A stretch of 38,336 nucleotides of DNA from an uncultured Clostridia bacterium (lineage in GTDB: Bacteria; Bacillota; Clostridia; TANB77; CAG-508). Under the pieces are notes generated by a model, which saw nothing but the letters and a program-made list of their open reading frames with translations, was not told the DNA's origin and did no database searches. The translations under genes and the position numbers were made by a program. Shown here in pieces: positions 940-36,970 of the stretch (position 1 is the stretch's first letter; each line of letters starts with the position of its first letter). The DNA lies in the NCBI GenBank assembly GCA_944387505.1, contig CALXFG010000018.1, forward strand, positions 1-38,336. Direction: 5' to 3'.

Positions 940-1003
940 TGTCGCATAGAGATCGTTTTTCAATGCGACATTTGTCCCATAGAGATCGTTTTTCAATGGG
1001 ACA
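940..1003. repeat. Two tandem family A 31-bp hairpin repeats
   Basis: Two full units lie 2 bp apart upstream of sigK. The unit at 940-970 has arms TGTCGCAT/ATGCGACA. The unit at 973-1003 has arms TGTCCCAT/ATGGGACA. Both share the same 15-base centre containing GAGATCGTTTTT. The fifth arm pair differs between the two (G-C against C-G), yet each unit pairs perfectly with itself. Confidence 0.9.
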
Positions 1004-1085
1004 TTTTAAAAACTCGCATAACAAATTATATGTTGGAGAAAAATAAAAGTGCCTGACCACTAGAAAATAATTATTTAGGACAATA

Positions 1086-1128
1086 TGGATTAATCGGGAC
1101 TTGGTTCTAATTGATCCAAATTAATCCA
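1086..1128. repeat. Nested inverted repeat upstream of the antitoxin pair
   Basis: Outer arms TGGATTAAT and ATTAATCCA are a perfect 9-bp match. Inside them TTGGTTC and GATCCAA pair with one mismatch around the loop TAATT. It lies between the sigK repeats and the antitoxin promoter. It could be a terminator-like or operator structure; no T-run follows directly. Confidence 0.45.
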
Positions 1129-1156
1129 CAAATATGAGGTGTTTTTAGAAAAAGAC

Positions 1157-1185
1157 TTGCTTACATATCATAATTTTGATATAAT
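1157..1185 (+). promoter_or_regulatory. Promoter of first antitoxin gene
   Basis: -35 TTGCTT (1157-1162), a 17-bp spacer and -10 TATAAT (1180-1185). It lies 26 bases before the ATG at 1212, which has an AGGAGG ribosome binding site. The matching region before the second antitoxin gene (about 1612-1640) keeps the ATATCATAATTTT block but has lost the TATAAT. Confidence 0.65.
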
Positions 1186-1211
1186 TTGTCTATACAAAAG
1201 GAGGCGATTTT

Positions 1212-1568
1212 ATGGCTTTAATCAGACCATGTGCAGATTTGAGAAATAATTATAATGAAATTTCAAAAATATGTCACGAAACAAAAGAACCAATGTATAT
1301 CACGAAAAATGGAACAAATGATTTAGTTATTTTAAGTGATGAAGCATTTGAAGAATTAACAAAGGTTTTAGAAGAAACAGAGGAAGAGAGAATTGATAGA
1401 TTGGTATCAGAACATTTTGATAAACAATATGCCACTTTTGAGGAATTTCAAAAAGATATGATTAGGAAAATTGAAGAAGCATTTAAAGATATTGAAGAAG
1501 GACATTATGTGTCAATGGAAGAAGCTATGGAAGAATTGGAAGAAAAATATGGATTCTCTAGAGAATAG
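1212..1568 (+). CDS. Phd/YefM-type antitoxin, first tandem copy
   Basis: A 118-residue protein. Residues 1 to about 55 match the Phd/YefM antitoxin fold: a start of the form MALIRPCADLRNNYNEISK, then PMYITKNGTNDLVILS, then a helix EEFEELTKVLEE-like. Such proteins bind their own promoter and neutralise a partner RelE/YoeB- or Doc-type toxin through the C-terminal part. The C-terminal half is acidic and helical (FEEFQKDMIRKIEEAFKDI, then SMEEAMEELEEKYGF). The ribosome binding site is AAAGGAGGCG. A near-identical gene follows at 1656. No RelE-like or Doc-like toxin is seen on either side, so this looks like an orphan antitoxin or one acting on a distant toxin. The antitoxin family call is good; the partner is unknown. 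Confidence 0.8.
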   Translation: MALIRPCADLRNNYNEISKICHETKEPMYITKNGTNDLVILSDEAFEELTKVLEETEEERIDRLVSEHFDKQYATFEEFQKDMIRKIEEAFKDIEEGHYVSMEEAMEELEEKYGFSRE

Positions 1569-1655
1569 AAAATATAAAATTGAAATAAACTTTAGAAAAT
1601 AGTTTATTGTATATCATAATTTTAATAGGATTTCCATATAAAAGGAGGCGATTTT

Positions 1656-2015
1656 ATGGCTTTGATTAGACCATGTGCAGATTTAAGAAATCATTATAAT
1701 GAAATTTCAAAAATATGTCATGAAACAAAAGAACCAATGTATATTACGAAAAATGGAACAAATGATTTAGTTATTTTAAGTGATGAAGCATATGAAGAAT
1801 TAACAAAAGTGTTAGAAGAAACAGAAGAAGAGAGAATTGATAGATTGGTATTAGAACATTTTGATAAACAATATGCTACTTTTGAGGAATTTCAAAAAGA
1901 TATTTTTAAGAAAATTGAAGAAGCAATGCAAGAGATTAAAGAGGGAAAAGGAATTCCGATGGAAGATATTGTAGCAGAAATGGAGGCGAAATATCATCTT
2001 AGTGAAGATATATAA
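1656..2015 (+). CDS. Phd/YefM-type antitoxin, second tandem copy
   Basis: A 119-residue duplicate of the gene at 1212. The first 85 or so residues are nearly identical (changes such as N to H and F to Y in the N-terminal part). The last 30 have diverged (KKIEEAMQEIKEGKGIPMED, ending KYHLSEDI). The duplication includes the leader: the AAAAGGAGGCGATTTTATG block is the same in both. The divergence is concentrated in the C-terminal region that contacts toxin in this family, which suggests different partners (inference). There is no toxin gene downstream; the next gene is a DUF368 membrane protein. It probably depends on read-through from the first copy, since its own -10 is degraded. Confidence 0.8.
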   Translation: MALIRPCADLRNHYNEISKICHETKEPMYITKNGTNDLVILSDEAYEELTKVLEETEEERIDRLVLEHFDKQYATFEEFQKDIFKKIEEAMQEIKEGKGIPMEDIVAEMEAKYHLSEDI

Positions 2016-2155
2016 AATTATTGTTCCTGATATGCCATATAATAAAAATGTTTAATTAGTAAAAAATATCAATTGAATGAATGAAATAAAAAGAAATTCA
2101 TAAAATAAGAAGGGAGAATGTGAGTTTTTCTAGATATATTTTTGAGGAGTTATTT

Positions 2156-3034
2156 ATGAATGGATTTTTAAATATGATAAAAGGCATTTTTATTGGAGCA
2201 GGAGCAATTGTGCCAGGTGTTAGTAGTGGTGTGTTATGTGTAATTTTTGGCATTTATGAAAAATTATTAGATGCTGTTTTGAATTTTTTTAAAGATCTGA
2301 AAAAGAATTTTAAGTTTTTATTTCCTATTGCTGTAGGTGTTGGAATAGGTGTTTTATTATTTAGTAATATGTTAAATTATCTCTTATATGAATTTCCTAT
2401 ACAAACGAAATCTATATTTATTGGATTAATACTAGGAACAATTCCTTCTTTAATAAAAGAAGTCAATGAAAAAGCAACATTTAAACCACAAAATGTGTTC
2501 TATTTGTTGATTGCATTGGCAATAGGAATAATAACAGTGATAGTAGAAAACCAAATGGATATAGTGAGTAATGGCGATAATATAAGTATTATGTATTTGG
2601 TTATGTGTGGTGCTATTATGTCTCTAGGAATTGTAGTGCCAGGTGTCAGTAGTACCATTATTTTAATGTTACTAGGTGTATATTCTGTTTATTTACAATC
2701 AGTTGCTAACCTATATTTACCAGTATTAATTCCTATGGGAATCGGATTAGTATTAGGAAGTATTATTGTGATGAAATTAACCAAAAAATTGTTAGAGAAA
2801 TATTATGCACAAACCTTTTACAGTATCATCGGTTTTACGATTGGATCCATATTTGTTCTTTTACCACAAGGAATGACATGGTTAGAAACAATTTTATGTG
2901 TGTTATGTGTCATTTTAGGAGTATATGTATCTCGCATACCAGATGCTATTAAAAATTTTAGAAGTTCTAAAATGTTTAAAGCAGTTAAAGTGTTAAATAA
3001 AATGCGTTCACAGTCAAAGACTCAAAAAGATTAA
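2156..3034 (+). CDS. DUF368 family integral membrane protein
   Basis: A 292-residue, very hydrophobic protein with about eight to nine membrane segments. It shows the two repeated DUF368 signatures: IGAGAIVPGVSSGVLCVIFG near the N-terminus and SLGIVVPGVSSTIILMLLGV in the middle. This inverted-type duplication of an xxPGVSxG motif is typical of the family, members of which have been linked to recycling of undecaprenyl-phosphate carriers across the membrane. The ATG at 2156 is chosen because GAGGAG lies six bases upstream and the protein then starts directly with the family N-terminus. A GTG at 2120 with AGAAGGGAG is an alternative that would add 12 residues. It is a short polybasic C-terminal tail protein (KMRSQSKTQKD). 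Confidence 0.85.
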   Translation: MNGFLNMIKGIFIGAGAIVPGVSSGVLCVIFGIYEKLLDAVLNFFKDLKKNFKFLFPIAVGVGIGVLLFSNMLNYLLYEFPIQTKSIFIGLILGTIPSLIKEVNEKATFKPQNVFYLLIALAIGIITVIVENQMDIVSNGDNISIMYLVMCGAIMSLGIVVPGVSSTIILMLLGVYSVYLQSVANLYLPVLIPMGIGLVLGSIIVMKLTKKLLEKYYAQTFYSIIGFTIGSIFVLLPQGMTWLETILCVLCVILGVYVSRIPDAIKNFRSSKMFKAVKVLNKMRSQSKTQKD

Positions 3035-3040
3035 GAGGAG

Positions 3041-3070
3041 AAATCGGAAAAATGAGTCTGTCCCCGATTT
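3041..3070. repeat. Degenerate family B hairpin repeat
   Basis: Perfect 7-bp arms AAATCGG and CCGATTT enclose the family B core read in reverse (AAAAATGAGTCTGTCC). The arms differ from the GGGA/TCCC arms of other copies but still pair with each other. GGAGAAATC just before and GATTTCTCC at 3074-3082 extend the pairing. It sits between the DUF368 gene and the promoter at 3176. Confidence 0.75.
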
Positions 3071-3175
3071 CTTGATTTCTCCGTTTTCCAATTTCTCCGT
3101 CCTCGATTTTCCGAATTGTTCGTTTCAATTTTCCTCGCCTGTCAGCTTATTTCCTTTAAAACTCAGGAAAAAGAC

Positions 3176-3204
3176 TTGTGAAATGTTTGAGAATGTAGTA
3201 TAAT
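3176..3204 (+). promoter_or_regulatory. Promoter of the 3243-gltX transcript
   Basis: -35 TTGTGA (3176-3181), a 17-bp spacer and -10 TATAAT (3199-3204), about 40 bases upstream of the ATG at 3243. It probably drives the small unknown gene, gltX and the DUF951 gene. Confidence 0.6.
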
Positions 3205-3242
3205 GTTTGACATAAAGAACAGATAAGGAAGGAAATGACAAT

Positions 3243-3509
3243 ATGATAAAAGATGATAAGACAAGAGAAAAAATGAAAAGTATCATTCGAGAGAATCAAG
3301 ATAAAACATTAAATAAATTAAAAAATATGATAAAAAATAAATTACCAAAAGAAGAAAGAGAGGAATTTACATTTAATGATTTAATGCAATTAATATCAGA
3401 AATCAATCAAGACAGAGAAAAAGAAATACAAAAATTTTATTCTAAAAGACCAACAGTTTCTTCAAGAAAATCTAAAAATACAAGAAATATAGAAGGAGAG
3501 GAAAGATAA
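3243..3509 (+). CDS. Small charged protein of unknown function
   Basis: An 88-residue, highly charged, mostly helical protein with no family I recognise. The N-terminal part is rich in Lys (DDKTREKMKSIIRENQDKTL, then MIKNKLPKEEREEFTF). A central stretch FNDLMQLISEINQDREKEI looks amphipathic. The tail is basic and Ser-rich (SKRPTVSSRKSKNTRN). There is no signal peptide and no Cys. The ribosome binding site is AAGGAAGGAAA. It ends two bases before the gltX start, so it is translationally close to gltX and likely co-transcribed. Codon use matches the neighbours. Confidence 0.7.
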   Translation: MIKDDKTREKMKSIIRENQDKTLNKLKNMIKNKLPKEEREEFTFNDLMQLISEINQDREKEIQKFYSKRPTVSSRKSKNTRNIEGEER

Positions 3510-3511
3510 AA

Positions 3512-5158
3512 ATGGATTATAAAGATTTAGCAAATGCCATATTTCCAGATGCAAAGGATATCGCATATTATGAGGAAAAATATCCAGAAAGAAATTTAAA
3601 AGAAGGAGCCATTGTCACAAGATTTGCACCAAGTCCAACAGGATTTGTACATATAGGAGGATTATATCAATCTTTGATTGCTAGAAAATTAGCTAATCAA
3701 ACAGAAGGTGTATTCTTATTAAGAATTGAAGATACAGATCAAAAAAGAGAAGTAGAAAATGGAATAACCGATATTGTGCAATCTTTGGATAGATTTGGAA
3801 TAGAGCCTGATGAAGGAATGATTTCAGAAACAGAAGGAAAAGGAAATTATGGACCATATAGACAATCTATGAGAAAAGATATTTATCAAAGTTATGCAAA
3901 ATACTTAATTGAACAAGGTAAAGCATATCCATGTTTCTGTACACCAGAAGACCTAGAAGAAATGAGAACAAAACAAGAAAATGCAAAAATTAGACCAGGA
4001 TATTATGGTGTTTGGGCAAAATGTAGAAATATAACAGTTGAAGAAGCAATTGAAAAGATAAAAAATGGAGAAAAATACATTGTTCGTTTTAAATCACCTG
4101 GACGTGAAGATAGAAAAATTAAACATCATGATCTTATAAAAGGAAATGTAGATTTTCCAGAAAATGACCAAGATATCGTTATTATCAAAGCAGATGGGTT
4201 GCCAACATATCACTTTGCACATGCAGTAGATGATCATTTAATGAGAACAACACATGTTATCAGAGGTGATGAATGGTTATCATCAGTTCCATTACATTTA
4301 CAATTATTCCATGAATTAGGATTTAAAGCGCCTAAATATGCACATATTGCGCCAATTATGAAAAATGATAATGGAAATAAGAGAAAATTGAGTAAAAGAA
4401 AAGACCCAGAAGCAGCAGTATCATATTATGACGAAATGGGAATTCCAAAAGAAGCTGTTAATGAATATTTGTTAAATATTGCAAATTCTAATTTTGAAAA
4501 CTGGAGAAGAGCTAATAAAGATAAATCAATTGATGAATTTGAATTACAATTAAACAAAATGAGTGTGAGTGGTGCCTTGTTTGACATGGTAAAATTATTA
4601 GATGTAGGAAAAACGGTTATATCTAAATTTACAGCAGAAGAAGTATATGAAAATGCATTGAATTGGGCAAAAACATATGACAAAGAATTAGAAGAAATGT
4701 TACAAGACAAAGAATATGCTTTAAAAGTGTTTGGAATTGAAAGAGGAAATAAAAAGCCTAGAAAAGACATTGCAAAATGGTCAGATGTCAAAGAAAACAT
4801 AGAATATATGTATGATGACAAATTCTTTGCAAAAGAACAAGAGTATCCATATCAAGTGATAAACGAAAAAGAAGATGTTGATAAAATATTAGATTTGTAT
4901 ATGGAAAAATACTATGATGAAAATGATGACAAACAACAATGGTTTGACAAAATAAAAGAACTTGCAGGAAAACTTGGATATGCAAAAGAAGTAAAAGAAT
5001 ATAAAGCAAATCCAGATGCCTATAAAGCACATGTAGGAGATGTTAGTACAGTATTAAGAGTAGCATTAACAGGCAGAACCAATACACCAGACATGTATGA
5101 AATCATGCAAGTATTAGGAAAAGAAAGCATCAAAAAAAGATTTGAAATGTCCCATTGA
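3512..5158 (+). CDS. gltX: Glutamate--tRNA ligase
   Basis: A 548-residue class I aminoacyl-tRNA synthetase that charges tRNA-Glu with glutamate. The HIGH-type motif is PSPTGFVHIGGL at about residues 41-51. The KMSKS-type motif is KLSKRKD at about 292-298. A Rossmann-fold region with FAHAVDDHLMRTTHVIRGDEW lies between them. The helical C-terminal anticodon-binding part is present, and the length fits the longer clostridial form of about 550 residues. The start follows GGAGAGGAAAG after the upstream gene. The last codons, ATG TCC CAT TGA, come from a family A repeat that overlaps the 3' end, so the native stop has been replaced by one inside the repeat. The core fold is unaffected. Confidence 0.95.
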   Translation: MDYKDLANAIFPDAKDIAYYEEKYPERNLKEGAIVTRFAPSPTGFVHIGGLYQSLIARKLANQTEGVFLLRIEDTDQKREVENGITDIVQSLDRFGIEPDEGMISETEGKGNYGPYRQSMRKDIYQSYAKYLIEQGKAYPCFCTPEDLEEMRTKQENAKIRPGYYGVWAKCRNITVEEAIEKIKNGEKYIVRFKSPGREDRKIKHHDLIKGNVDFPENDQDIVIIKADGLPTYHFAHAVDDHLMRTTHVIRGDEWLSSVPLHLQLFHELGFKAPKYAHIAPIMKNDNGNKRKLSKRKDPEAAVSYYDEMGIPKEAVNEYLLNIANSNFENWRRANKDKSIDEFELQLNKMSVSGALFDMVKLLDVGKTVISKFTAEEVYENALNWAKTYDKELEEMLQDKEYALKVFGIERGNKKPRKDIAKWSDVKENIEYMYDDKFFAKEQEYPYQVINEKEDVDKILDLYMEKYYDENDDKQQWFDKIKELAGKLGYAKEVKEYKANPDAYKAHVGDVSTVLRVALTGRTNTPDMYEIMQVLGKESIKKRFEMSH

Positions 5159-5203
5159 GATCGTTTTTCAAATGTCCCATTGAGATCGTTTTTCTATGGG
5201 ACA
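5148..5203. repeat. Family A repeats overlapping the gltX stop
   Basis: A left half unit (5148-5170, TGTCCCAT plus the centre) is followed directly by a full 31-bp unit (5173-5203, arms TGTCCCAT/ATGGGACA). The first one supplies the final residues MSH and the TGA stop of gltX. Confidence 0.9.
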
Positions 5204-5215
5204 TTTACATAAAAA

Positions 5216-5246
5216 TGTCCCAAACAGAAACGTCCCCAATTGGACA
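5216..5246. repeat. Family C 31-bp repeat
   Basis: Starts TGTCCCAAACAGAAACG and ends CCCAATTGGACA. One base differs from the copy at 15496-15526 (C against T at the 18th to 19th base). The ends TGTCC/GGACA pair. It lies 13 bases after a family A unit and just upstream of the DUF951 ribosome binding site. Confidence 0.85.
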
Positions 5247-5269
5247 TGTGATGAAGAAGGAGATAAAAA

Positions 5270-5458
5270 ATGGATTATCAAATAGGAGATATTGTAAGAA
5301 CAAAAAAAGTACATCCTTGTGGAAGCAAATTGTGGGAAGTTACAAGAATAGGTGTGGATTTTAAGTTAAAGTGCCAAGGGTGTGGACATGTTGTGACAAT
5401 TCCAAGAGAGAAAGCTTTAAAAGTCATAACAAAATTGGAAAAAAGAAAAGAGATATAG
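5270..5458 (+). CDS. DUF951 family protein
   Basis: A 62-residue protein with the DUF951 pattern: DYQIGDIVRTKKVHPCGS, then WEVTRIGVDFKLKCQGCGH, then the conserved tail of the type VTIPREKALK. The Cys residues in HPCGS and CQGCGH probably form a small zinc site (family knowledge plus inference). The function is unknown; members often sit near translation genes, as here after gltX. The ribosome binding site is AAGGAGA, ten bases before the ATG. A longer reading from 5155 is in another frame and is not coding. Confidence 0.9.
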   Translation: MDYQIGDIVRTKKVHPCGSKLWEVTRIGVDFKLKCQGCGHVVTIPREKALKVITKLEKRKEI

Positions 5459-5473
5459 GATAAATAATTGAAA

Positions 5474-5504
5474 GAAGAGGGTATTCATAATAGAATATCC
5501 TCTT
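5474..5504. terminator. Hairpin between convergent DUF951 and ysxC genes
   Basis: AAGAGGGTATTC and GAATATCCTCTT form a 12-bp stem with one G-U pair around ATAATA. It stands between two convergent genes, so it may serve both strands. The T-run is poor on both sides, so efficiency is uncertain. Confidence 0.5.
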
Positions 5505-5591
5505 AAAAATAATGAAAAATAATTCGTCGTCAAAAAAAATTAACTGCTAAAATAATTCGTCATCCCAATAAGTATTTTTTTAAATTAAACA

Positions 5592-6191
5592 TTAAACTAA
5601 AGCTTCATTGTTAAAATGATTATCAATAAAATTCCAAACATCGTCTTTATAAATTTTTCTCTCAGATGAAAAAGGTAAAGTAGGGATATCTCCAATAGGG
5701 TTCAATTCTTTTTGCAATGATTTTACAGTGTCATCTACTTTTGTAATAGCAATTTTATCAGCCTTATTTGCCAAAATTAAACAAGGTAATCCAGAAGATA
5801 TGATATAGTTATACATCAGTTTATCATTGACAGTAGGAGAATGACGAATATCTATTAAAAAGATAATTAAGGAAATTTCTTTTCTATGGAATAGATATTG
5901 TTCTATAAATTTTCCTACTTGTTCCTGTTCTTTTTTAGACATTTTACTATATCCATATCCAGGTAAGTCTACAAAATAGAAGATATTATCCATATTGTAG
6001 AAATTAATTTGACGCGTTTTTCCAGGTTCACTACTGGTTCTTGCTAATTTTTTTCTATTGATCATTGTATTGATAAAACTAGATTTTCCTACATTTGATT
6101 TTCCTACTAAAACAATTTCAGGTAGATGGTTATTAGGATATTGTTTTGGACCAACTGCAGATATTTCAAATTGGGGATTTTTTATATTCAT
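5592..6191 (-). CDS. ysxC: Ribosome biogenesis GTP-binding protein YsxC/EngB
   Basis: A 199-residue Era/TrmE-type GTPase needed for late assembly of the 50S ribosomal subunit. G1 is GKSNVGKSSF at about residues 30-39. The switch region is SSEPGKTRQINFY. G3 is DLPGYGYSK. G4 is NKAD. The G5-like PFSSE is near the C-terminus. The length is typical of the family. The ribosome binding site is a weak AAGGAGAATTTT. It is the last gene of a minus-strand run with DUF1653, serS and purA, although a 370-base structured gap separates it from purA. Confidence 0.95.
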   Translation of the reverse strand: MNIKNPQFEISAVGPKQYPNNHLPEIVLVGKSNVGKSSFINTMINRKKLARTSSEPGKTRQINFYNMDNIFYFVDLPGYGYSKMSKKEQEQVGKFIEQYLFHRKEISLIIFLIDIRHSPTVNDKLMYNYIISSGLPCLILANKADKIAITKVDDTVKSLQKELNPIGDIPTLPFSSERKIYKDDVWNFIDNHFNNEALV

Positions 6192-6259
6192 TATTAAAAT
6201 TCTCCTTTTTTGTTTTTTATATTTTCATATTTTAACATATTTTATTGTTTTTTTCAAAG

Positions 6260-6346
6260 GACAAATCTCGCTTCGCCAGAACTTTTCTATACTTTCCTAA
6301 TTTAACTATACATATTTAAGTTCTCGAAGAAGCGTAAAGATTTGTC
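6260..6346. repeat. Long imperfect inverted repeat in the ysxC-purA gap
   Basis: GGACAAATCTCGCTTCG...AGAACT at the left matches AGTTCT...CGAAGAAGCG...AGATTTGTC at the right as an interrupted inverted repeat about 87 bp long. No ORF is inside. It resembles a small non-coding mobile element or its remnant. Confidence 0.5.
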
Positions 6347-6351
6347 GACGC

Positions 6352-6425
6352 GAAAAATTGCTATGCAATTTTTCTGTGCAACTTTGTTTTTTTTTGTTGA
6401 ATAGGAAAACTTGATTTTCCTATTC
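6352..6425. repeat. Two adjacent perfect hairpins
   Basis: The first (6352-6374) has 10-bp arms GAAAAATTGC/GCAATTTTTC around TAT. The second (6399-6425) has 11-bp arms GAATAGGAAAA/TTTTCCTATTC around CTTGA. A copy of the right arm with its flank (TTTTCCTATACAATAAGAAA) recurs at 6481-6500. The remainder of the gap holds no gene. Confidence 0.6.
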
Positions 6426-6501
6426 AATAAGAAAGGCGTGCGTTAACGAAATCTTATATGTGGTCAAGATAAAAGTCGATTTTTCCTATACAATAAGAAA
6501 A

Positions 6502-6552
6502 GAGAGCATAATGAAATGCCTACTATATGTACACTTCATAATAAGCTCTCTT
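6502..6552 (-). terminator. Terminator downstream of purA
   Basis: Read on the minus strand, AAGAGAGC...GCTCTCTTTTCTT forms a stem (AGAGAGC/GCTCTCT) with a further pairing of TTATGAAG and CTTCATTA-type inner segments, followed by a T-rich tail. It starts about ten bases after the purA stop codon. Confidence 0.65.
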
Positions 6553-6560
6553 CCATATGA

Positions 6561-9350: not shown

Positions 9351-9366
9351 AAAAATCCTCCTTTTT

Positions 9367-9449
9367 TGTCCCATTGAGATTGTTTGTGTCGCATTAAGTT
9401 CGTTTGTCTATGCGACATTGTCTCATTGAGATCGTTTGTCTATGCGACA
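9367..9449. repeat. Cluster of three family A repeats
   Basis: A half unit (9367-9386, TGTCCCAT...) is followed by a full unit at 9387-9417 (arms TGTCGCAT/ATGCGACA) and another at 9419-9449 (arms TGTCTCAT/ATGCGACA, one mismatch). They fill almost the whole gap between the serS ribosome binding site and the DUF1653 stop. Confidence 0.9.
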
Positions 9450-9451
9450 TT

Positions 9452-10845: not shown

Positions 10846-10870
10846 GTTCACACAAAATTCACAAAATATT

Positions 10871-12129: not shown

Positions 12130-12654
12130 ATGTCAGACAAAGAAAATAATAAGGAAGAATTAGAAAAAGAGAAAGAAACAAAAACAGAAAAAGTAGAAAG
12201 TAAAAAAGCACAAAAAGAGCAAGAGATTGTACCAAAATCAGAATATGACGAATTAGATGATAGGTATAAAAGAATTTTAGCAGAATTTGAGAATTTTAAA
12301 AAGAGAAGTGCCAAAGAAAGAGAAGGCTTATACAATTCGATTTTATCAGATGTAGTTGCAGTTATGCTTCCTATATTAGATAACTTAGAAAATGCAGCTA
12401 AAGTTGAAACTAAAGATGAAGAATATAAAAAAGGAATTGAATTGGTATTGAAACAATTTCAAGATACATTAAAAGCAAAAGGTGTAGAAGAAATTAAAAC
12501 TGTAGGAGAAACTTTTGATCCAGAACTACATGAGGCAGTAAGTAGTGTACAAGATGATACTAAAGGTGAAAAAGAAATTGTTCAAGAATATAGAAAAGGA
12601 TACAAGATTGGCTCAAGGGTTATACGCCATTCGATGGTAGTGGTAGCTAACTAA
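12130..12654 (+). CDS. grpE: Nucleotide exchange factor GrpE
   Basis: A 174-residue co-chaperone that releases ADP from DnaK. The N-terminal 60 residues are charged and form a long coiled-coil helix (KENNKEELEKEKETK onward). The dimer helix continues into RYKRILAEFENFKKRSAKE. The C-terminal beta wing carries the signature FDPELHEAVSS and YRKGYKIGSRVIRHSMVVVA. Length and end are normal. The ribosome binding site is AAAGGTGG. It is the second gene of the heat-shock operon; a repeat element begins at its stop codon. Confidence 0.96.
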   Translation: MSDKENNKEELEKEKETKTEKVESKKAQKEQEIVPKSEYDELDDRYKRILAEFENFKKRSAKEREGLYNSILSDVVAVMLPILDNLENAAKVETKDEEYKKGIELVLKQFQDTLKAKGVEEIKTVGETFDPELHEAVSSVQDDTKGEKEIVQEYRKGYKIGSRVIRHSMVVVAN

Positions 12655-12782
12655 ATGAATGAAAAGCAGCAATCTTCACATTTTTATAAATTTGTTCAAA
12701 CCTCGATGTACCATAAGTACACCTTCGGCTTGACCAATTTTATAAAAATGCAAATCTTACTACTTTTCATCCATTTAATTAA
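12650..12782. repeat. Miniature inverted-repeat element after grpE
   Basis: The left end (CTAAATGAATGAAAAGCAGC onward, 12650-12694) and right end (12740-12782) form imperfect inverted repeats of about 45 bp, with shared words ATTTTTATAAA and GATGAAAAG. The centre holds CCTCGATGTACC/GTACACCTTCGG, which can also fold. There is no coding capacity beyond a short artefact frame. The element starts inside the grpE stop region. Confidence 0.6.
12663..12742 (+). repeat. 80-bp direct repeat, copy 1
   Basis: Begins AAAGCAGCAATCTTCACA and ends GGCTTGACCAATTTTA. It is identical over 80 bp to 12791-12870. It contains the left end and centre of the inverted-repeat element. Confidence 0.9.
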
Positions 12783-12790
12783 GAAAAAAG

Positions 12791-12870
12791 AAAGCAGCAA
12801 TCTTCACATTTTTATAAATTTGTTCAAACCTCGATGTACCATAAGTACACCTTCGGCTTGACCAATTTTA
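12791..12870 (+). repeat. 80-bp direct repeat, copy 2
   Basis: Identical to 12663-12742 at an offset of 128 bp, but without the right inverted end, so it is a truncated copy. It ends 24 bases before the CYTH gene start. The perfect identity suggests a recent duplication. Confidence 0.9.
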
Positions 12871-12894
12871 CAAATTATAGAAACAGGAGTTAAA

Positions 12895-15462: not shown

Positions 15463-15526
15463 GGGAGTTTGGGGACGGACTCAAATTTCCCTTTTTGTCC
15501 CAAACAGAAACGTTCCCAATTGGACA
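15463..15526. repeat. Family B unit joined to a family C unit between dnaK and dnaJ
   Basis: A 29-bp family B unit (15463-15491) starts GGGAGTTTGGGGACGGACTC and ends ATTTCCC. Four T bases link it to a 31-bp family C unit (15496-15526) starting TGTCCCAAACAG and ending CAATTGGACA. It fills most of the gap before the dnaJ ribosome binding site. Confidence 0.88.
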
Positions 15527-16783: not shown

Positions 16784-16814
16784 TGTCGCACAGAAAAACG
16801 AACTTAATGAGACA
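16784..16814. repeat. Family A repeat after dnaJ
   Basis: A full 31-bp unit in the reverse orientation (centre AGAAAAACGAACTTA) with imperfect arms TGTCGCAC/ATGAGACA. It lies just after the operon terminator. Confidence 0.8.
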
Positions 16815-20740: not shown

Positions 20741-20923
20741 CATTTTGAGGGATTTTGGGGACGGACTCATTTTTCCCTTTTTAAGATTTAACAATTTTAA
20801 CATATATAAACTCTTAAATAGTTCTATATATATTTTTTAATGAAGTTCTGTAATTGTAATAATATATTATTACAATTACAGAAAAAGGGAAAAATGAGTC
20901 CGTCCCCAAAATCCCTCAAAATG
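20741..20923. mobile_element. Miniature element with 42-bp family B ends, upstream of ruvB
   Basis: The left end 20741-20782 and right end 20882-20923 are perfect 42-bp inverted repeats. Each carries a 29-bp family B unit (core GGGGACGGACTCA). The 99-bp interior has no ORF but holds a perfect 34-bp palindrome at 20848-20881. The right end stops 25 bases before the ruvB ribosome binding site. A sister element lies at 30394-30514. It is MITE-like in form; no transposase is encoded here. Confidence 0.75.
20848..20881. repeat. Perfect 34-bp palindrome
   Basis: CTGTAATTGTAATAATA and its exact reverse complement meet with no loop. It abuts the right inverted end of the miniature element. It could be a protein-binding site or a folding-back of the element centre. 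Confidence 0.8.
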
Positions 20924-29792: not shown

Positions 29793-29875
29793 AGGTAGTG
29801 TAAAGTAATCTATGAAAAAATAGAATATGAAACATTATTCAGAAAATGTAAAAAAGTAAATAAGGGAGATATAAA

Positions 29876-30220: not shown

Positions 30221-30252
30221 GTGTAAAATAATTTATAAGGATGAATAAATAA

Positions 30253-30295
30253 AAAATACAAGGGGTTAGCCATTAAGTCTAATACCTTGTATTTT
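30253..30295 (+). terminator. Terminator after the 29876 gene
   Basis: AAAATACAAGG and CCTTGTATTTT form a perfect 11-bp stem around a loop of about 21 bases, followed by GTTGTT. An extra inner pairing is possible. Confidence 0.75.
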
Positions 30296-30302
30296 GTTGT
30301 TA

Positions 30303-30346
30303 CAGTATTTTTTAATATTCACTTCAGTATTTTTTAATATTCACTT
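30303..30346 (+). repeat. Tandem 22-bp direct repeat
   Basis: CAGTATTTTTTAATATTCAC plus TT occurs twice head to tail with no spacer (30303-30324 and 30325-30346). It lies between a terminator and the second miniature element. Confidence 0.85.
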
Positions 30347-30393
30347 GTAATTGTAGAAATATTTTATGAAATATGATATAGTATTTTTAGTTG

Positions 30394-30514
30394 AATTCGG
30401 GATTTTGGGGACTCATTTTTCCCTTTTTTTAAAATTATATAGTAATGTTGCATAGTATATTTTGCCAAATTCATAAAAAAGGGAAAAATGAGTCCGTCCC
30501 CAAAATCCCGAATT
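30394..30514. mobile_element. Second miniature element with family B ends, upstream of the GT-C gene
   Basis: Left end 30394-30429 and right end 30475-30514 are inverted repeats of 36 and 40 bp, beginning AATTCGGGATTTTGGGGAC; the left one lacks four bases of the core. The 45-bp interior differs from that of the element at 20741. It stops seven bases before the AGGAGG of the downstream gene. GGACA of a family C end follows at 30515. Confidence 0.75.
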
Positions 30515-30531
30515 GGACATAGGAGGAAACA

Positions 30532-31995
30532 ATGAAGGAAAAAATAATAGAATTTATCCATGCAAAGAAAATCATCTTAATTGGTTTTATACTAGCAACC
30601 ATCGCGTTTGCCATACCATCTATTCAATATTTATTAGAAAATGGAACAATACAAAACTTTAATGAATATTTTAAATTTTGTTTAAATGATACAAGTCGAC
30701 TTGACCAAACCCTAATATATATTATGATTTTAGCAGTATTGACAATATTTTATTTCTTAATTGTAAAAAATAGAAATAAGCTATTTAAAAATAATAAACA
30801 GATGTATATGTATATAGCGATTATTTCACTAATCTTTGTAGTAGTTGTACCATTCTTAAGTTCAGACGTATTTTATTATTTAGGGGTAGGAAGATTAGAT
30901 AGCCAATATGGACAAAATCCCTATTATGTAACAATCAAAGACTTTGTAGAAAAGGGAGATAACAGCCAGTATTTAGAGCAAGATACAGTATTAGCAAAAG
31001 GGTATGAAAATGACTGGGGAAGCACAACCGTTGTATATGGACCGATTTGGACACTTGTTTGTAAGATGGTAGCAGGAATTTCTTTTGGAAACATTGATAT
31101 TGCCTTATTGCTATTTAAATTATTAAATATGGCAATTCATTTAGTAAATTGTTATCTGATTTATAAATTAACAGGAAAAAAACTATTTGTATTGTTATAT
31201 GGATTAAATCCATATATGTTTATAGAAGGCATTGCAAATGTACATAATGATATATATGTAGTGACATGTATATTAGCTTCTCTATATTTCTTACTAAAAA
31301 AGAAGAATATCCTTGTTAGTATTCTATTTTTAGCATTGGCTACGGCAATAAAATATTTTGCGATTTTATTATTGCCATTTATCATTATATATTATTTTAA
31401 AGATAAAAAGCCTAGGGAGAGATTGAAGAATTGCTTTTTATATGGTATGCTATTTGTGTTTATAGTAGCAATTACTTATTTACTATATGTACAAGATATA
31501 CAAGTATTCAGTGGAATCATGACACAGCAAGAGAAATTTGCAAAAAACTTTTATATTATACTAATGGAATATTTTGATATACCAGATTTGGTTTCTAATG
31601 TAAATGCTGTATTTTTAAGTGTATTTGTCATCATCTATTTCTTTACCTGCTTAACATTATTATATAAGAAACAGATAACATTTAGAGAAGAAATAAGAAA
31701 AACTCAATATTTTTTAGTAGCATTTTTGTTTTTACTAATTACCAATTTTCAAACGTGGTATATTATGTGGTTATTCCCATTAATGATGTGGCAAAAGAAA
31801 CAGATGATACAATTTGTTGTGCAAATCACATTAATTAGTCAATTTGCCAATAGTGTTTTCTTAATCAATGGAGAAGGTTGGAGAAATGGAACACCATTTA
31901 CATTTTTCATGTTATTAGGGATATTTGTGTGTTTGAATTTAATGTCGCATAGACAAACGATCTCAATGCGACAAAAGAATAGGAGTTTGAAATGA
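30532..31995 (+). CDS. GT-C fold membrane glycosyltransferase
   Basis: A 487-residue protein with about eleven membrane segments, like polyprenyl-phosphate-mannose-dependent mannosyltransferases (MptB/GT87 type). The first periplasmic loop has the acidic catalytic motif SSDVFYYLGVGRL, then GQNPYYVTIKDF and STTVVYGPIW; a later loop has NPYMFIEGIANVHND. It would add a sugar from a lipid carrier to an envelope glycan on the outer face of the membrane. The start at 30532 has AGGAGG six bases upstream. Its last 17 or so residues (MSHRQTISMRQKN) derive from a family A repeat that has been read into the frame. It overlaps coaE by four bases (ATGA). Confidence 0.8.
   Translation: MKEKIIEFIHAKKIILIGFILATIAFAIPSIQYLLENGTIQNFNEYFKFCLNDTSRLDQTLIYIMILAVLTIFYFLIVKNRNKLFKNNKQMYMYIAIISLIFVVVVPFLSSDVFYYLGVGRLDSQYGQNPYYVTIKDFVEKGDNSQYLEQDTVLAKGYENDWGSTTVVYGPIWTLVCKMVAGISFGNIDIALLLFKLLNMAIHLVNCYLIYKLTGKKLFVLLYGLNPYMFIEGIANVHNDIYVVTCILASLYFLLKKKNILVSILFLALATAIKYFAILLLPFIIIYYFKDKKPRERLKNCFLYGMLFVFIVAITYLLYVQDIQVFSGIMTQQEKFAKNFYIILMEYFDIPDLVSNVNAVFLSVFVIIYFFTCLTLLYKKQITFREEIRKTQYFLVAFLFLLITNFQTWYIMWLFPLMMWQKKQMIQFVVQITLISQFANSVFLINGEGWRNGTPFTFFMLLGIFVCLNLMSHRQTISMRQKNRSLK
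31943..31973. repeat. Family A repeat inside the end of the GT-C gene
   Basis: A full 31-bp unit in the reverse orientation with perfect arms TGTCGCAT/ATGCGACA, wholly within the coding frame. It encodes the stretch MSHRQTISMRQ. Confidence 0.9.
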
Positions 31996-32720
31996 TTTTA
32001 GTAGGAATAACAGGAAAATCTGGAAGTGGAAAATCATATTTTTCAAAAAAACTAGCAGAAAGCATAGAAAAAAGCAGTGTTATATCTATTGACAATATTT
32101 TTTCTAGATTGATGAACAATGGACAAGTTATAGATAGAATTGTAAAAGACTATGGACAGAGGGTCTTAAAAGACGGAGAAATTGATTTAGATGTTATATT
32201 AAATGATAAAGAAATATTTTCAAAGATTTATGAAATAATAGGAAAAGATATAGAATCCGAAGTTGGTAGAGAAATCAGAGAAATAGAAAAAAACGGAGAT
32301 AAGGCTTGTATTATGGAGTGGTGGGGACTACCTAATACAGACTTAATAAACCAATGTGATTGTTCCATATTCATACAAGCAGATTCAAAAGAAAGGCTAA
32401 CAGCATTAAAAAATAGGGAAACATATATAACACAAGAAAGTATGAATGAAAGAGATAATGTATTAGGAGCGGATTATGCTAGTAAAGAATATGATTTAGT
32501 GGTACAAAATGATTATGACGAAAATACTATTACAGAAGTAGTAGACTTAGTGAAAGAGCAAATAAAACTAAAAAGATTTTCAGTTGAAGAATTAGCAACA
32601 TTTAAGGATAGATCTATTGAAGGGAAGAACAGAGCACTGAACAAAATTGCAAAAGATAAAGATACAGAAGATAAAAATAAACAAGATGAAAGGAACGAAC
32701 AAACAGAAGAAGAAAAGTAA
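31992..32720 (+). CDS. coaE: Dephospho-CoA kinase-like protein
   Basis: A 242-residue P-loop kinase. It starts MILVGITGKSGSGKSYFSKK, giving Walker A GKSGSGKS (about residues 8-15). The typical CoaE helix with an Asp (SIDNIFSRL) follows, then the middle KACIMEWWGLPNTDL and DCSIFIQAD, and RLTALKNRET as the lid Arg segment. CoaE makes coenzyme A by phosphorylating the ribose 3'-OH of dephospho-CoA. The last 35 residues are an extra charged tail (KDKDTEDKNKQDERNEQ). The ATG overlaps the preceding stop. The polA neighbourhood supports the name, since coaE and polA often lie together, but sequence identity to classical CoaE looks low. Confidence 0.75.
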   Translation: MILVGITGKSGSGKSYFSKKLAESIEKSSVISIDNIFSRLMNNGQVIDRIVKDYGQRVLKDGEIDLDVILNDKEIFSKIYEIIGKDIESEVGREIREIEKNGDKACIMEWWGLPNTDLINQCDCSIFIQADSKERLTALKNRETYITQESMNERDNVLGADYASKEYDLVVQNDYDENTITEVVDLVKEQIKLKRFSVEELATFKDRSIEGKNRALNKIAKDKDTEDKNKQDERNEQTEEEK

Positions 32721-32740
32721 ATATATAAGTGGAGGAAAAA

Positions 32741-33172
32741 ATGGAAGATAATTTTCCTAAAGCATATAAGGAAGTAATTGAAATATTAAAGCATTTTCCT
32801 AAAAGAGATATTAACAAAATACCACAAAAATTGATAGATTTATTAAAAAGAAAAATGGATAATACCTATGAATTTCATGTGGATATGAATAAATCACTTG
32901 AAGAACAAGATTTACTTGAAGAAACAAAAGATATTCTAGCTAATCTTTATAGAGATTATTTTGCAGATGAAGAAGAAAAAGCAAACATAAAGGAAAAAGA
33001 AAAAAAGGAAATAGAAGAAATAGAAGAAGAGAAAAGAAGGAAATATCCTGTTGATATATTTAAAGAGAAAGAATGTATTCCAAATATAAAAACAACAGAA
33101 TTGGTGATAAAAAAGCAAAGTAGATTAATAAGAATAAAGAATTTTATCAAAAAAATACTACATCTAGATTGA
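32741..33172 (+). CDS. Helical protein, paralogue of the one at 29876
   Basis: A 143-residue protein. It begins MEDNFPKAYKEVIEILKHF, then INKIPQKLIDLLKRKMDNTY, then an acidic segment with DLLEETKDILANLYRDYFA, a coiled coil (EEEKANIKEKEKKEIEE) and YPVDIFKEKE. About 30 more basic residues follow. It shares its motif order with the protein at 29876 but has a longer tail. The function is unknown. The ATG at 32741 has GGAGG five bases upstream; a GTG at 32729 is an alternative. It lies between coaE and polA. Confidence 0.75.
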   Translation: MEDNFPKAYKEVIEILKHFPKRDINKIPQKLIDLLKRKMDNTYEFHVDMNKSLEEQDLLEETKDILANLYRDYFADEEEKANIKEKEKKEIEEIEEEKRRKYPVDIFKEKECIPNIKTTELVIKKQSRLIRIKNFIKKILHLD

Positions 33173-33177
33173 TAAAA

Positions 33178-33245
33178 TGTCGCATAGACAAACGAACTCT
33201 ATGAGACAAAAAAATGTCGCATAGACAAACGAACTCAATGCGACA
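33178..33245. repeat. Two family A repeats upstream of polA
   Basis: Units at 33178-33208 (arms TGTCGCAT/ATGAGACA, one mismatch) and 33215-33245 (TGTCGCAT/ATGCGACA, perfect), both in reverse orientation. A further TGTCGCA half-arm is at 33251. They fill the gap up to the polA ribosome binding site. Confidence 0.9.
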
Positions 33246-33274
33246 TGACATGTCGCAAGGCGAAGGAGGAAAAA

Positions 33275-35977
33275 ATGGATAATTTTGTTTTAATTGATGG
33301 AAACAGTATTATGAATCGAGCATTTTATGGGATTATGGGAAGTAAAATGCTAACGACGAAAGATGGAAAGTATACAAATGCGGTATATGGTTTTTTAGCA
33401 ATTTTATTTAAATTAATAGAAGATACCAATCCTAAATATATGGCTGTTGCATTTGACTTAAAAGCACCAACAGCAAGACATAAATTATATGAAGGATATA
33501 AAGCTAATCGAAAAGGAATGCCAGAGGAATTGGCAGAGCAAATGCCTTTAATTAAAGAAATATTAAGAGCTATGAATATTGATATTGTGGAAAAAGAAGG
33601 CTATGAAGCAGATGATGTTTTAGGGACACTTTCTAGATATGGAGAAAAACAAGGACTTCATGTGACCATATTATCAGGAGATAGAGATACTTTCCAATTA
33701 GCAACTGATAATGTAACCATCAGAATTCCTAGAACAAAAGGTGGAAAAACGGAAACAGATTTATTTGATAGAAGTAAAATAATAGAGACCTATGGAATAG
33801 AACCAAAACAATTAATAGAGGTAAAAGGCTTGCAAGGAGATAGCTCGGATAATATACCAGGTGTACCTGGAATTGGAGAAAAAACAGCATTATCTTTGAT
33901 TCAAAAATATGGTTCTATAGAAAATTTATATGACAAAGTCGAAAAAAATGAGGATGATTTAAAAGGAAAACAAAGAGAAAAGATTAAAGATAATAAAGAA
34001 TTAGCAGAATTATCTAAAACATTAGGAACTATCAATCTTGAAGTTCCAATTGAAGATACATTGGAACAATTTAAAGTAGAAGAATGGGATAAGGAAAAAG
34101 TATTAAAATTATTTAAAGAATTAAATTTTAATCGATATATTGAACGTTTTCATTTAACAGGTGAAAAAGAGGATAACCAAGAAGAAAACTATAAAATAGA
34201 ATTTAAGACGGTTGAAAAATCTCTAGAAGAAGTAATGAATATTATCATAGAACAAAAAAATATGATATTTTATTTGCAAACAGAAAAGGATGATAATCCA
34301 GAAAATATCATAAAAGAAAAAATAACAGGAATGAGTCTATATAATCCAGATACGCAAGAAGCCTATTATATAAAACTAAATCAAGAAGAAATAGCACAAC
34401 TAAAAAATATATTGGAAGATGCAAACATAAAAAAGACAAGCATCAATTTAACAAAAGTTTATATTTTATTAAAACAAGCAGATATTACTTTAGATGGAAT
34501 TGAAAATGATATATCTATTGGTGCTTATATTTTAAATCCAACCAATAATAAATTAGACCTTAAAAATTTAGCAATGCAATATTTAGAATTGGATATAGAA
34601 GAATATATAGGAGAAGAAGAAAATCAAAAACAAATGACTTTATTTGAAGAAAATGATATGCAAAATGATAAAAAAGCTTCAGAAAAGTATAATTTGTATG
34701 TATATGTCATAGAAAAAATAAACAATATGATTTTACAAAAATTAAAAGAAACCAATAGTTTTGATTTATATACCAATATTGATATGCCAACCGTAGAAGT
34801 GTTATCTAGTATGCAATGGAATGGAATGTATGTAGATGAACAAGAATTAAGTGCATTTGGAGAAGAATTGACTTCACAAATTGAAGTTTTAACAAAGGTA
34901 ATTCATGAAATGGCAGGAGAAGAATTTAATATTAATTCCACAAAGCAATTAGGAGAAATTCTTTTTGAAAAAATGAAATTACCAGTTATTAAGAAGACAA
35001 AAAATGGATATTCTACAGATGTAGATGTTTTAGAAAAACTAAAAAGAGAAGATCCAATTATTGGAAAGATATTAGAATATAGGCAATTAATGAAACTAAA
35101 TTCAACATATGTAGAAGGACTAAAACCATTTATTAATCCAAAAACCAAAAGAATTCATTCCTTTTTCCATCAAACCATCACAGCAACAGGAAGAATTAGT
35201 TCAACAGAACCAAATTTACAAAATATTCCTACCAGATTTGAATTAGGAAAAAGAGTAAGAAAGGTATTTAAACCAGAAGAGGGAAAAGTCTATATTGATG
35301 CAGACTATTCTCAAATAGAGCTAAGAGTATTGGCACATATTTCAGAGGATAAGCACATGATAGAAGCTTTTAAGAATAATGAAGATATCCATAAACAAGC
35401 AGCTTCAAAAGTTTTTAAAACACCAATCGATGAAGTAACCAAAGAACAAAGAAGTAATGCAAAGGCTGTAAACTTTGGAATTGTCTATGGAATTAGTGAT
35501 TTTGGACTAGCTGAACAATTAGGAATTTCTAGAAAAAGAGCAAAACAATATATAGATGAATATTTAACAGAGTATGCAGGAATAAAAGAATTTATGGAGA
35601 ATATTATTGAAAAGGCAAAAGAACAAGGATATGTTGAAACCTTATTTCATAGAAGAAGATATGTTCCAGAATTGAGTTCTAAGAATTATATGGTAAGACA
35701 ATTTGGAAATAGAGTGGCAATGAATACACCAATTCAAGGAACAGCAGCTGATATTATGAAAATCGCGATGATTAATGTAAATAAAGAATTGAAGAAAAGA
35801 GGACTAGAAGCGAAAATTATTTTACAAGTACATGATGAAATGATGATTGAAGCTCCAGAAAGTGAAAAAGAGGAAGTAAAAGATATCATGAAAAAAGAAA
35901 TGGAGTCTGCAATACAATTAAAGATACCACTTGTTGCAGAAATATCAGAAGCTAAAAATTGGTATGATTGTAAATAA
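33275..35977 (+). CDS. polA: DNA polymerase I
   Basis: A 900-residue family A polymerase for Okazaki fragment processing and repair. The N-terminal 5'-3' exonuclease/flap domain (residues 1-300) has FVLIDGNSIMNRAFYG, EADDVLGTL, SGDRDTFQL and DSSDNIPGVPGIGEKTA. The 3'-5' exonuclease domain is present but its DxE-type motif is lost (FYLQTEKDD instead), so proofreading is probably inactive, as in many Firmicutes. The polymerase domain has motif A DADYSQIELR (Asp677), motif B RSNAKAVNFGIVYG and motif C QVHDEMMIE (Asp854, Glu855). The start at 33275 follows GGAGG; an earlier start at 33245 lies in a family A repeat. Confidence 0.96.
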   Translation: MDNFVLIDGNSIMNRAFYGIMGSKMLTTKDGKYTNAVYGFLAILFKLIEDTNPKYMAVAFDLKAPTARHKLYEGYKANRKGMPEELAEQMPLIKEILRAMNIDIVEKEGYEADDVLGTLSRYGEKQGLHVTILSGDRDTFQLATDNVTIRIPRTKGGKTETDLFDRSKIIETYGIEPKQLIEVKGLQGDSSDNIPGVPGIGEKTALSLIQKYGSIENLYDKVEKNEDDLKGKQREKIKDNKELAELSKTLGTINLEVPIEDTLEQFKVEEWDKEKVLKLFKELNFNRYIERFHLTGEKEDNQEENYKIEFKTVEKSLEEVMNIIIEQKNMIFYLQTEKDDNPENIIKEKITGMSLYNPDTQEAYYIKLNQEEIAQLKNILEDANIKKTSINLTKVYILLKQADITLDGIENDISIGAYILNPTNNKLDLKNLAMQYLELDIEEYIGEEENQKQMTLFEENDMQNDKKASEKYNLYVYVIEKINNMILQKLKETNSFDLYTNIDMPTVEVLSSMQWNGMYVDEQELSAFGEELTSQIEVLTKVIHEMAGEEFNINSTKQLGEILFEKMKLPVIKKTKNGYSTDVDVLEKLKREDPIIGKILEYRQLMKLNSTYVEGLKPFINPKTKRIHSFFHQTITATGRISSTEPNLQNIPTRFELGKRVRKVFKPEEGKVYIDADYSQIELRVLAHISEDKHMIEAFKNNEDIHKQAASKVFKTPIDEVTKEQRSNAKAVNFGIVYGISDFGLAEQLGISRKRAKQYIDEYLTEYAGIKEFMENIIEKAKEQGYVETLFHRRRYVPELSSKNYMVRQFGNRVAMNTPIQGTAADIMKIAMINVNKELKKRGLEAKIILQVHDEMMIEAPESEKEEVKDIMKKEMESAIQLKIPLVAEISEAKNWYDCK

Positions 35978-36330
35978 TTTTTTATGTTTGTAAAATAAAA
36001 TGAAATGATATAATATTATGTTCAATTTGGATTATAGTAGTGAATGAAGATTATTATTTTTTCATTATCTCCTCGGCTAGCTCCATGTACTACAAATTCT
36101 AAGTTTTAAATAAATGAGCCTCTCGCTGCATCGCGCTTCCTCATTTATTTAAAACTAAGAATTTCTATGTCCATTTCACGTCACATTCGTCGATACATTC
36201 AAAAATAATAATCTTTATCCACTACCAAAAAAATAAAAATGATAGGGAAAATATTAGGGAGTAAAAAACATCATCAATTAACAACAAACATATAAAAGGG
36301 GAAACTTAAAGTTTAAAGGAGAGAAATTTT
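35978..36330. other. Structured gap between polA and the transglycosylase
   Basis: About 350 bases without a gene. It holds the long inverted-repeat element at 36037-36225 and an AT-rich leader with the ribosome binding site AAAGGAGAG before the TTG at 36331. No clear promoter boxes stand out, given the AT content. Confidence 0.5.
36037..36225. repeat. Long inverted-repeat element, 189 bp
   Basis: Outer ends GTAGTGAATGAAGATTATTA and its counterpart ending AATCTTTATCCACTAC pair over about 29 bp with few mismatches. Inner arms at 36094-36118 and 36140-36164 (AAATTCTAAGTTTTAAATAA and complement) pair over 25 bp with one mismatch around a 21-base GC-richer loop. No ORF. The form is that of a non-coding miniature element. 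Confidence 0.7.
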
Positions 36331-36900
36331 TTGATAAAAAGCAAATATAAAATCTTAATAGGTACAGTTATTGTGGTACTCATAATAGCTATACTATTTA
36401 TTCTGTTTAAAGATAAATTATTAAAAATACTATACCCTAAAACATACAATGAAATTGTATCAGTCTATGCAGAAGAATATGATGTAGAGGAAAATTTAAT
36501 ATATGCAGTGATAAAAGCAGAAAGCAATTTTGAAAGTCAGGCAGTTTCGAATAGAGATGCCATTGGGTTAATGCAAATTGTAGAAGAAACAGCAATTGAT
36601 GTTGCTAAGAAAAATAACATAGATATTGATACAGAAAATATAGAAGAAGAAATACTAGATATTGATAACAACATAAATATTGGAACAAAATACTTATCAA
36701 CATTGTTAACACAATATGGAAATATAGAAGTCGCATTAGCAGCATATAATGCGGGGATTGGAACGGTAAATAATTGGATAGACAAACAAATCATAAAAGC
36801 AGATGGATCAGATATTGAAAACATACCATATAAAGAAACAAATAATTATGTAAGAAAAATATTAAGGGACTATGGAATATATAATGAGTTATATGGATAA
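36331..36900 (+). CDS. Lytic transglycosylase, SLT domain
   Basis: A 189-residue enzyme with one N-terminal membrane anchor (residues 8-27, ILIGTVIVVLIIAILFILF). The Slt-type catalytic domain has the Glu in IKAESNFESQAVS (Glu64), GLMQIVEETA, then YLSTLLTQYG and LAAYNAGIGTV, ending near YVRKIL. It cleaves peptidoglycan strands outside the cell to allow growth or insertion of complexes. It starts with TTG behind AAAGGAGAG. It stands upstream of mreB/mbl, consistent with a wall-growth theme. Two family A repeats follow its stop. Confidence 0.92.
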   Translation: MIKSKYKILIGTVIVVLIIAILFILFKDKLLKILYPKTYNEIVSVYAEEYDVEENLIYAVIKAESNFESQAVSNRDAIGLMQIVEETAIDVAKKNNIDIDTENIEEEILDIDNNINIGTKYLSTLLTQYGNIEVALAAYNAGIGTVNNWIDKQIIKADGSDIENIPYKETNNYVRKILRDYGIYNELYG

Positions 36901-36970
36901 TGTCGCATTGGGTTCGTTTGTCAATGCGACATTTTGCCCTGTCTCATTGAGATCGTTTTTGTTTGAGACA
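36901..36970. repeat. Two family A repeats after the transglycosylase gene
   Basis: Units at 36901-36931 (TGTCGCAT/ATGCGACA) and 36940-36970 (TGTCTCAT/TTGAGACA, TA-type variant pairing over seven bases). The first begins directly after the stop codon. Confidence 0.9.

Follow-up and report, generated by a model that had tools for sequence, protein, structure and literature searches.

The closest described systems to the repeats reported here are the TIRYT elements (TIRtrons), whose terminal repeats carry the motif GGGGWSAS according to the excerpts of Di Nocera 2013 (PMC3733652) used here, and the enzymes of subclass 2.1, which in the excerpts of Quentin 2018 (PMC6006769) is the second largest TnpA-Y1 subclass, with no repetitive extragenic palindromic (REP)-like sequences near its genes. 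We compare with them a family of 31-bp hairpins, family A, which an initial annotation had picked out on a contig of 38,336 nucleotides (contig C18, here called the window) from an uncultured Clostridia bacterium whose genome (G000) comprises 65 contigs and 1.86 Mb. We hold with good confidence that the A units are non-autonomous REP-like elements, namely solo copies of the terminal-repeat hairpins of a HuH/Y1 gene of the TnpA-REP or REP-associated tyrosine transposase (RAYT) kind, located on another contig of the same genome (G000:C2:49286-50068).

Similar to TIRYT/TIRtron elements and subclass 2.1 as those excerpts describe them, the system has a HuH/Y1 protein of about 260 amino acids (aa) with a Y---NP motif and, in some members, weak matches to a C-terminal helix-turn-helix (HTH), inverted terminal repeats with a GGGGACA/GGGGACG-like motif, and moderately abundant dispersed copies that often form dimers. 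Likened by these motifs and published descriptions, the enzyme appears to resemble subclass 2.1/TIRYT. The excerpts speak of inverted repeats, some of them self-complementary, whereas the repeat here is a hairpin with the motif in its loop. Also unlike those descriptions, the stems vary between species with compensating changes, there are about 106 copies, and the dimers are direct. The GGGGWSAS-like motif itself is found only in the inverted repeats of relatives, the genome's own A type having diverged.

Two kinds of REP invite comparison as well. Like the GTAG REPs that accompany RAYT/TnpA-REP enzymes in E. coli, Pseudomonas and Stenotrophomonas, A units are short, mostly intergenic palindromes in roughly 100 or more copies, and they flank a HuH/Y1 gene on both sides. 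Unlike them, A units lack a GTAG/GTGG tetranucleotide at the 5' foot, and their pairs are direct, where classical bacterial interspersed mosaic elements are inverted, head-to-head or tail-to-tail dimers. CGTC REPs, reported in the excerpts of Di Nocera 2013 (PMC3733652) without a dedicated transposase, share a stem of about 8 bp, and the TGTC with which A units begin is a variant of CGTC given there; however, the tag of CGTC REPs is unpaired and their loops measure 4-5 nt, whereas in A units TGTC is part of the stem, which encloses a centre of 15 nt. Because tag, loop and dimer type differ, A units are neither GTAG nor CGTC REPs. The A-flanked gene belongs to the same enzyme superfamily as IS200/IS605 elements, whose palindromic ends are used on one strand (PMC8266576, excerpt), but unlike those it is not present in near-identical multiple copies in its own genome. 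Searches of open-licence papers with the loop strings, with TIRYT and with REP combined with Clostridia found none describing the A hairpins; the initial annotation knew of no described family with these arms.

A Y1 enzyme gene bracketed by family A units

Four genes in the genome score above the Pfam cut-off for Y1_Tnp, and one of them, that at C2:49286-50068, is flanked on either side by A units that are oppositely oriented and point inward. Three units stand on one side, the nearest adjoining the stop codon, and two on the other; no A unit was found in the examined flanks of the other three Y1 genes, including L001, the only IS200-type gene of the genome. The two flanks align with a score of 119; 60 shuffles reached no more than 27. 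These terminal repeats are direct tandems, as are the dispersed dimers. The initial annotation had likened the family to REPs moved by RAYT enzymes and proposed looking for a Y1 transposase with flanking copies; the gene on C2 is such a gene, and lends that comparison support.

The A-flanked protein matches PF01797 with 58.5 bits (cut-off 23), its reading frame is open, and it carries the motifs H-V-H and YIHQNP. In an alignment of 11 related proteins both histidines, the tyrosine and NP are invariant, and a profile of these proteins searched against solved structures gave E. coli TnpA-REP (4ER8) as its sole match (E 4e-6). The C-terminal HTH extension of TIRYT/subclass 2.1 enzymes is of the Bac_DnaA_C, HTH_23 or HTH_28 type. 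Weak HTH matches occur in a few members, HTH_28 and HTH_23 in 2 of the 11 each (best E 0.044 and 0.11), while HTH_11 is found in one paralog (E 4e-6); no C-terminal HTH domain was matched in the A-flanked protein itself. The enzyme family has three matches in the genome, this gene included. The genome's two other RAYT-like genes, L003 and L004, carry loop-motif terminal repeats of their own, and their products share 27% and 24% identity with the A-flanked protein. The nearest named records encoding the enzyme come from uncultured Eubacteriales, Clostridia and Clostridium sp.

All 11 full units of the window were recovered, each exactly 31 bp, together with the half units at 5148 and 9367, which begin 25 nt and 20 nt before the next unit. 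The initial annotation had staked the family on a genome-wide scan finding further copies. The consensus pattern with up to three mismatches has 112 matches in the genome (77 forward, 35 reverse) and none when read backwards, and a covariance model of A units finds 121 places at E<=1. We kept 106 of these as distinct units (E<=5.6e-4) and dropped 15 weaker ones (E>=8e-4), two of which are opposite-strand reads of window units. Neighbouring pairs lie on the same strand, head to tail, in 33 of 34 cases, with spacers of 0-8 nt, and 17 of the 19 tandem pairs that were read differ at 0-3 positions. The description of the units as occurring in pairs is right, with 39 of the 106 being single. Their placement between genes likewise stands in the main: 32 of 40 units overlap no open reading frame (ORF) of at least 90 aa, in stretches whose intergenic share is 15.8%, but eight overlap ORFs, three of them fully. 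Contig C2, which carries the enzyme gene, has 33 of the 106 units, ten times the density elsewhere. A base profile of the 60 units with 25 nt on each side shows T at +1 in 54.

Related enzymes, repeats and sites in other genomes

A relative of the A-flanked protein (E<=1e-10) is encoded in 117 of 146 genomes of the genus. Inverted repeats in the flanks of such genes score above all shuffles in 43 of the 49 genus loci scanned, of which L044 passes by one point and the repeat of L058 is another palindrome. Among Y1 genes at a greater distance 8 of 11 have such repeats, and at the class level 15 of 26 loci do (two of the 26 have flanks that are too short); GGGAC or GGGTC is present in all 23 of these more distant flank repeats, eight of them read by eye. 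Many of the genus terminal repeats are hairpins, often with a second full or half unit in direct tandem. Their arms vary among related loci (TGTCGCAT/ATGCGACA, ATGTGAAA/TTTCACAT, GGTCA/TGACC, GGTTAA/TTAACC), while the loop keeps GGGAC(G/A), which in the A type has diverged to G(A/G)G(A/T)TCG. A perfect 6-bp helix surrounds the first GGGAC(G/A) in 50% of the 78 motif-bearing loci among 85, against 12% when right arms are swapped among loci (maximum 21.8% in 500 swaps); these loci were not chosen for pairing, though they are related to one another. We also considered covariation among 32 distinct terminal-repeat units as evidence (85% of cells paired versus 61% shuffled; 48 both-side changes versus 13.6) and set it aside as biased, these units having been chosen for pairing.

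A second hairpin, AAAAGTATAGCA..TGCTATACTTTT, lies within 350 nt upstream of many enzyme genes among loci L036-L065, and GCTATAC occurs in 25 of these 30 loci. It may contain the promoter or an operator.

A units (E<=0.001) occur in 16 of the 146 genus genomes, and a second hairpin pattern, B (loop GGGGACGTTTC), in 46. A close enzyme (E<=1e-70) is encoded in 22 of the 28 repeat-rich genomes, defined as having at least ten copies of A or B, against 17 of the 118 others (p about 1e-10, a value that takes no account of kinship). The thresholds are post hoc, with a similar outcome at 5 and 20 copies, and hairpins with other arms fall outside both patterns. An enzyme gene with A-type flanks in genome G036 was considered as a broken copy and rejected as such: its two stops lie at residues 3 and 260 of 261, the first ahead of the start Met and the second beside the end, with none inside, and it is probably intact.

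Seven A sites were compared in five genomes (G036, G047, G073, G081 and G086). Directly after the ORF that ends at 36900, the own genome has A units and G047 A-like ones, a B hairpin occupies this point in G036, G073 and G086, and G081 has none. The region 5148-5253 holds A units in the own genome, G047 and G073 and none in G036; G081 and G086 have other sequence there, with hairpins of other types. At 31943 there is one unit in the own genome, two in G036 and none in G086. In the region 940-1003 both units of G047, G073 and G081 have TGTCGCAT, and G086 has no unit; the second unit of the own genome has arms TGTCCCAT/ATGGGACA there, and since its loop differs too, it is equally likely that another copy took its place and that it underwent a double change. 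None of the five genomes has an ortholog of site 16784, and only G036 has one of 33178. That a site can be filled in one species and empty or of another type in the next suggests that A units have moved.

Stem pairing and rival explanations

In an A unit TGTC pairs with GACA as part of an 8-bp stem around the 15-nt centre, within which two further pairs form in some units. According to the initial annotation the fifth pair changes as a pair in most units, which is correct for 8 of the 11 window units, where it is Watson-Crick; the other three have T.C. The arm TGTCTCAT had likewise been given an A-type partner, which it has, as T-A, in unit 36940 only, units 9419, 16784 and 33178 having C opposite T. 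Over 100 listed units of the 112, pair 5/27 is C-G in 60, G-C in 21, T-A in 2, T.C in 11 and other in 6. It is Watson-Crick in 60 of 74 distinct A units, against a mean of 32.5 and a maximum of 47 in 10,000 shuffles, so that the arm changes do pair beyond chance, a point on which the initial annotation had also made its reading depend. Both C-G and G-C forms, otherwise identical, occur in six loop backgrounds, with 940/973 as a tandem example. In 88 comparisons of units two differences apart, the two changes affected the same base pair 13 times (5.3% expected); only six of the 13 are C-G/G-C exchanges at pair 5, two involve T.C, and five concern positions 9/23, which are not part of the stem. 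On folding, units 940, 5173 and 36901 beat all 200 shuffles, two of the three on both strands. Unit 9419, with T.C, was matched or beaten by 28 of 200 shuffles; copies can therefore exist even when the stem is not a good one.

The initial annotation had taken such changes as direct evidence that pairing is maintained. This was too strong, because template switching during replication can make one arm match the other with no selection involved, a published mechanism (quasi-palindrome correction; PMC8794818, excerpt). It may account for the arm covariation, and for that only, and is compatible with the A units being solo copies of terminal repeats; we regard it as quite possible, while doubting it somewhat more than we credit it. 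The tandem units 940 and 973, which differ only at both members of pair 5/27, speak for it, as do the ends of larger inverted pairs built from other hairpins. In G020, G025 and G086 the B hairpin makes up the 30-31 bp at either end of inverted pairs that measure 146-380 bp, many of them about 150 or 280. Within each of 20 such pairs, which resemble miniature inverted-repeat transposable elements (MITEs) and were chosen among the matches listed for the B pattern, the two ends are identical, with eight different end sequences among them. Such arm identity is the template-switching expectation, and covariation here is thus no proof of selection. However, two other close inverted pairs among the matches listed (G020 C2 and G102 C48) have non-identical ends, the T.C mismatches show that any correction is incomplete, and template switching leaves the shared loop, the spread and the enzyme link unexplained. 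At loci L165 and L167, inverted pairs are nested symmetrically, one hairpin family within another, with identical outer ends.

Several observations weigh against our explanation of the A units as solo copies of the enzyme's terminal repeats. The T.C mismatch persists in 11 of 100 units. No conserved 5' tetranucleotide or 5' tag is present in the base profile of the 60 flanked units, and no target-site rule or 5' target motif was found around them. The match of the A-flanked protein to the NCBIfam model REP_Tyr_transpos is below cut-off (62 versus 80 bits), and an AlphaFold model of the enzyme is poor (predicted local distance difference test score, pLDDT, 51, from 6 sequences). Of the genus loci no more than 37 of 59, and of the class loci no more than 12 of 26, have a perfect 6-bp helix around any copy of the motif; given these counts, the hairpin build around enzyme genes is common but not universal. 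Six of the 28 rich genomes (G016, G034, G045, G073, G101 and G143) lack a close enzyme. Two of the six are only 75-80% complete, but G073, at 98%, has 52 A units and, as Y1 protein, only one of 29% identity. Copies can therefore outlive the enzyme or be moved by something else. Finally, no movement within a species could be observed.

These last points bear on a second alternative, that the units are relics which spread in an ancestor and now undergo only duplication, deletion and conversion at old sites. The six rich genomes without a close enzyme would fit it, as would the sites that are common to several species with the type changed (940, 9387 and 36901). The own enzyme is nevertheless open, with its HuH and Y motifs kept, and there are unit-free sites at 5148 (G036), 31943 (G086) and 36901 (G081), though these are possible losses; we consider the relic explanation unlikely. 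Far less probable still is that selection on RNA keeps the hairpins, either as structured RNA, an option the initial annotation had raised, or as terminator, stability or attenuation elements at mRNA 3' ends: the stems pair, a 3' end is the nearest gene end for 26 of 40 units, and G.T exceeds A.C by 26 to 6 on the unit strand of 74 distinct own units, but this last bias is absent from the terminal-repeat units (14 to 13) and is therefore not used as evidence, relative to codirectional genes 10 units point the same way and 18 the opposite way, the window has no Rfam match at gathering score, and the copies around a transposase, the direct dimers and the shared loop would be left unexplained.

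Returning to solo copies of terminal-repeat hairpins, the way in which they would be moved can be sketched from the chemistry of IS200/IS605 and of E. coli TnpA-REP. By this analogy we infer that the enzyme would bind the single-stranded hairpin, recognising it by the loop motif and by its own stem, and would cut beside it, with the conserved 3' T run as a possible site; the cut unit would then be joined into single-stranded DNA at gene borders, and such movement may be current. Dimers would arise afterwards by tandem duplication. The stem would act as an address, changeable provided that both arms change.

A wider proposal, which we advance tentatively and with nearly as much reason to believe as to doubt it, is that loop-tagged REPs of this kind exist across the class. 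TnpA lineages of the subclass 2.1 type would read a shared GGGAC(G/A) in a single-stranded loop, with the stem as an exchangeable address altered in compensating steps; switching of arms would create new enzyme/repeat pairs, and old sites would be rewritten to the new address. Family A would then be a recent branch that no longer takes the form of inverted pairs (MITEs) and spreads as direct dimers instead.

Features of the window and implications

The A units of the window, and the hairpins of other families that accompany them, are collected in the table.

Hairpin units in the window (A, B and C denote hairpin families; coordinates are window positions)
Feature	Coordinates	Strand	Remarks
A unit, first of direct dimer	940..970	+	
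A unit, second of dimer	973..1003	+	identical to 940-970 but for the two bases of pair 5/27
C-like hairpin	3040..3071	-	arms GAAATCGG/CCGATTTC
A half unit without right arm	5148..5172	+	gives last codons and stop (MSH*) of ORF 3512-5158
A unit	5173..5203	+	
B hairpin	5216..5246	-	loop GGGGACGTTTC; same class
A half unit	9367..9386	+	
A unit, first of dimer	9387..9417	+	
A unit, second of dimer	9419..9449	+	T.C mismatch at pair 5; poor fold
C hairpin	15463..15491	+	
B hairpin	15496..15526	-	loop GGGAACGTTTC
A unit, single	16784..16814	-	T.C mismatch at pair 5
C hairpin, left of inverted pair	20749..20777	+	arms GGGA/TCCC, GGGGACG in loop
C hairpin, right of inverted pair	20887..20915	-	
C hairpin	30481..30509	-	
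A unit in 3' end of ORF 30532-31995	31943..31973	-	codes part of C-terminal tail
A unit, second of dimer on - strand	33178..33208	-	T.C mismatch at pair 5
A unit, first of dimer on - strand	33215..33245	-	
A unit right after stop codon of ORF 36331-36900	36901..36931	+	B-type hairpin there in three relatives
A unit	36940..36970	+	T-A at pair 5

The relative in G086 of the product of ORF 30532-31995 has a tail of similar length made from unrelated sequence. Dispersed repeats of about 160-220 bp lie at window positions 6257-6434, 12650-12874 and 36050-36212 and have many copies in the six genus genomes searched; a search of Rfam gave no match for the three. Positions 1189-1932 hold tandem duplicated genes of 118 and 119 aa, 93% identical over 300 nt, which we take to resemble an antitoxin-like family.

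The family counsels some caution in the reading of conserved stems, since compensatory changes, when they occur in DNA hairpins, do not have to reflect an RNA structure. If the hairpins are indeed the substrates of the neighbouring enzymes, subclass 2.1 gains a recognisable target and a rule that can be read from sequence, a shared loop with a covarying stem. The many natural enzyme/hairpin pairs would lend themselves to the study of specificity by stem swapping, and the spread and replacement of small repeats would be traceable at orthologous sites.

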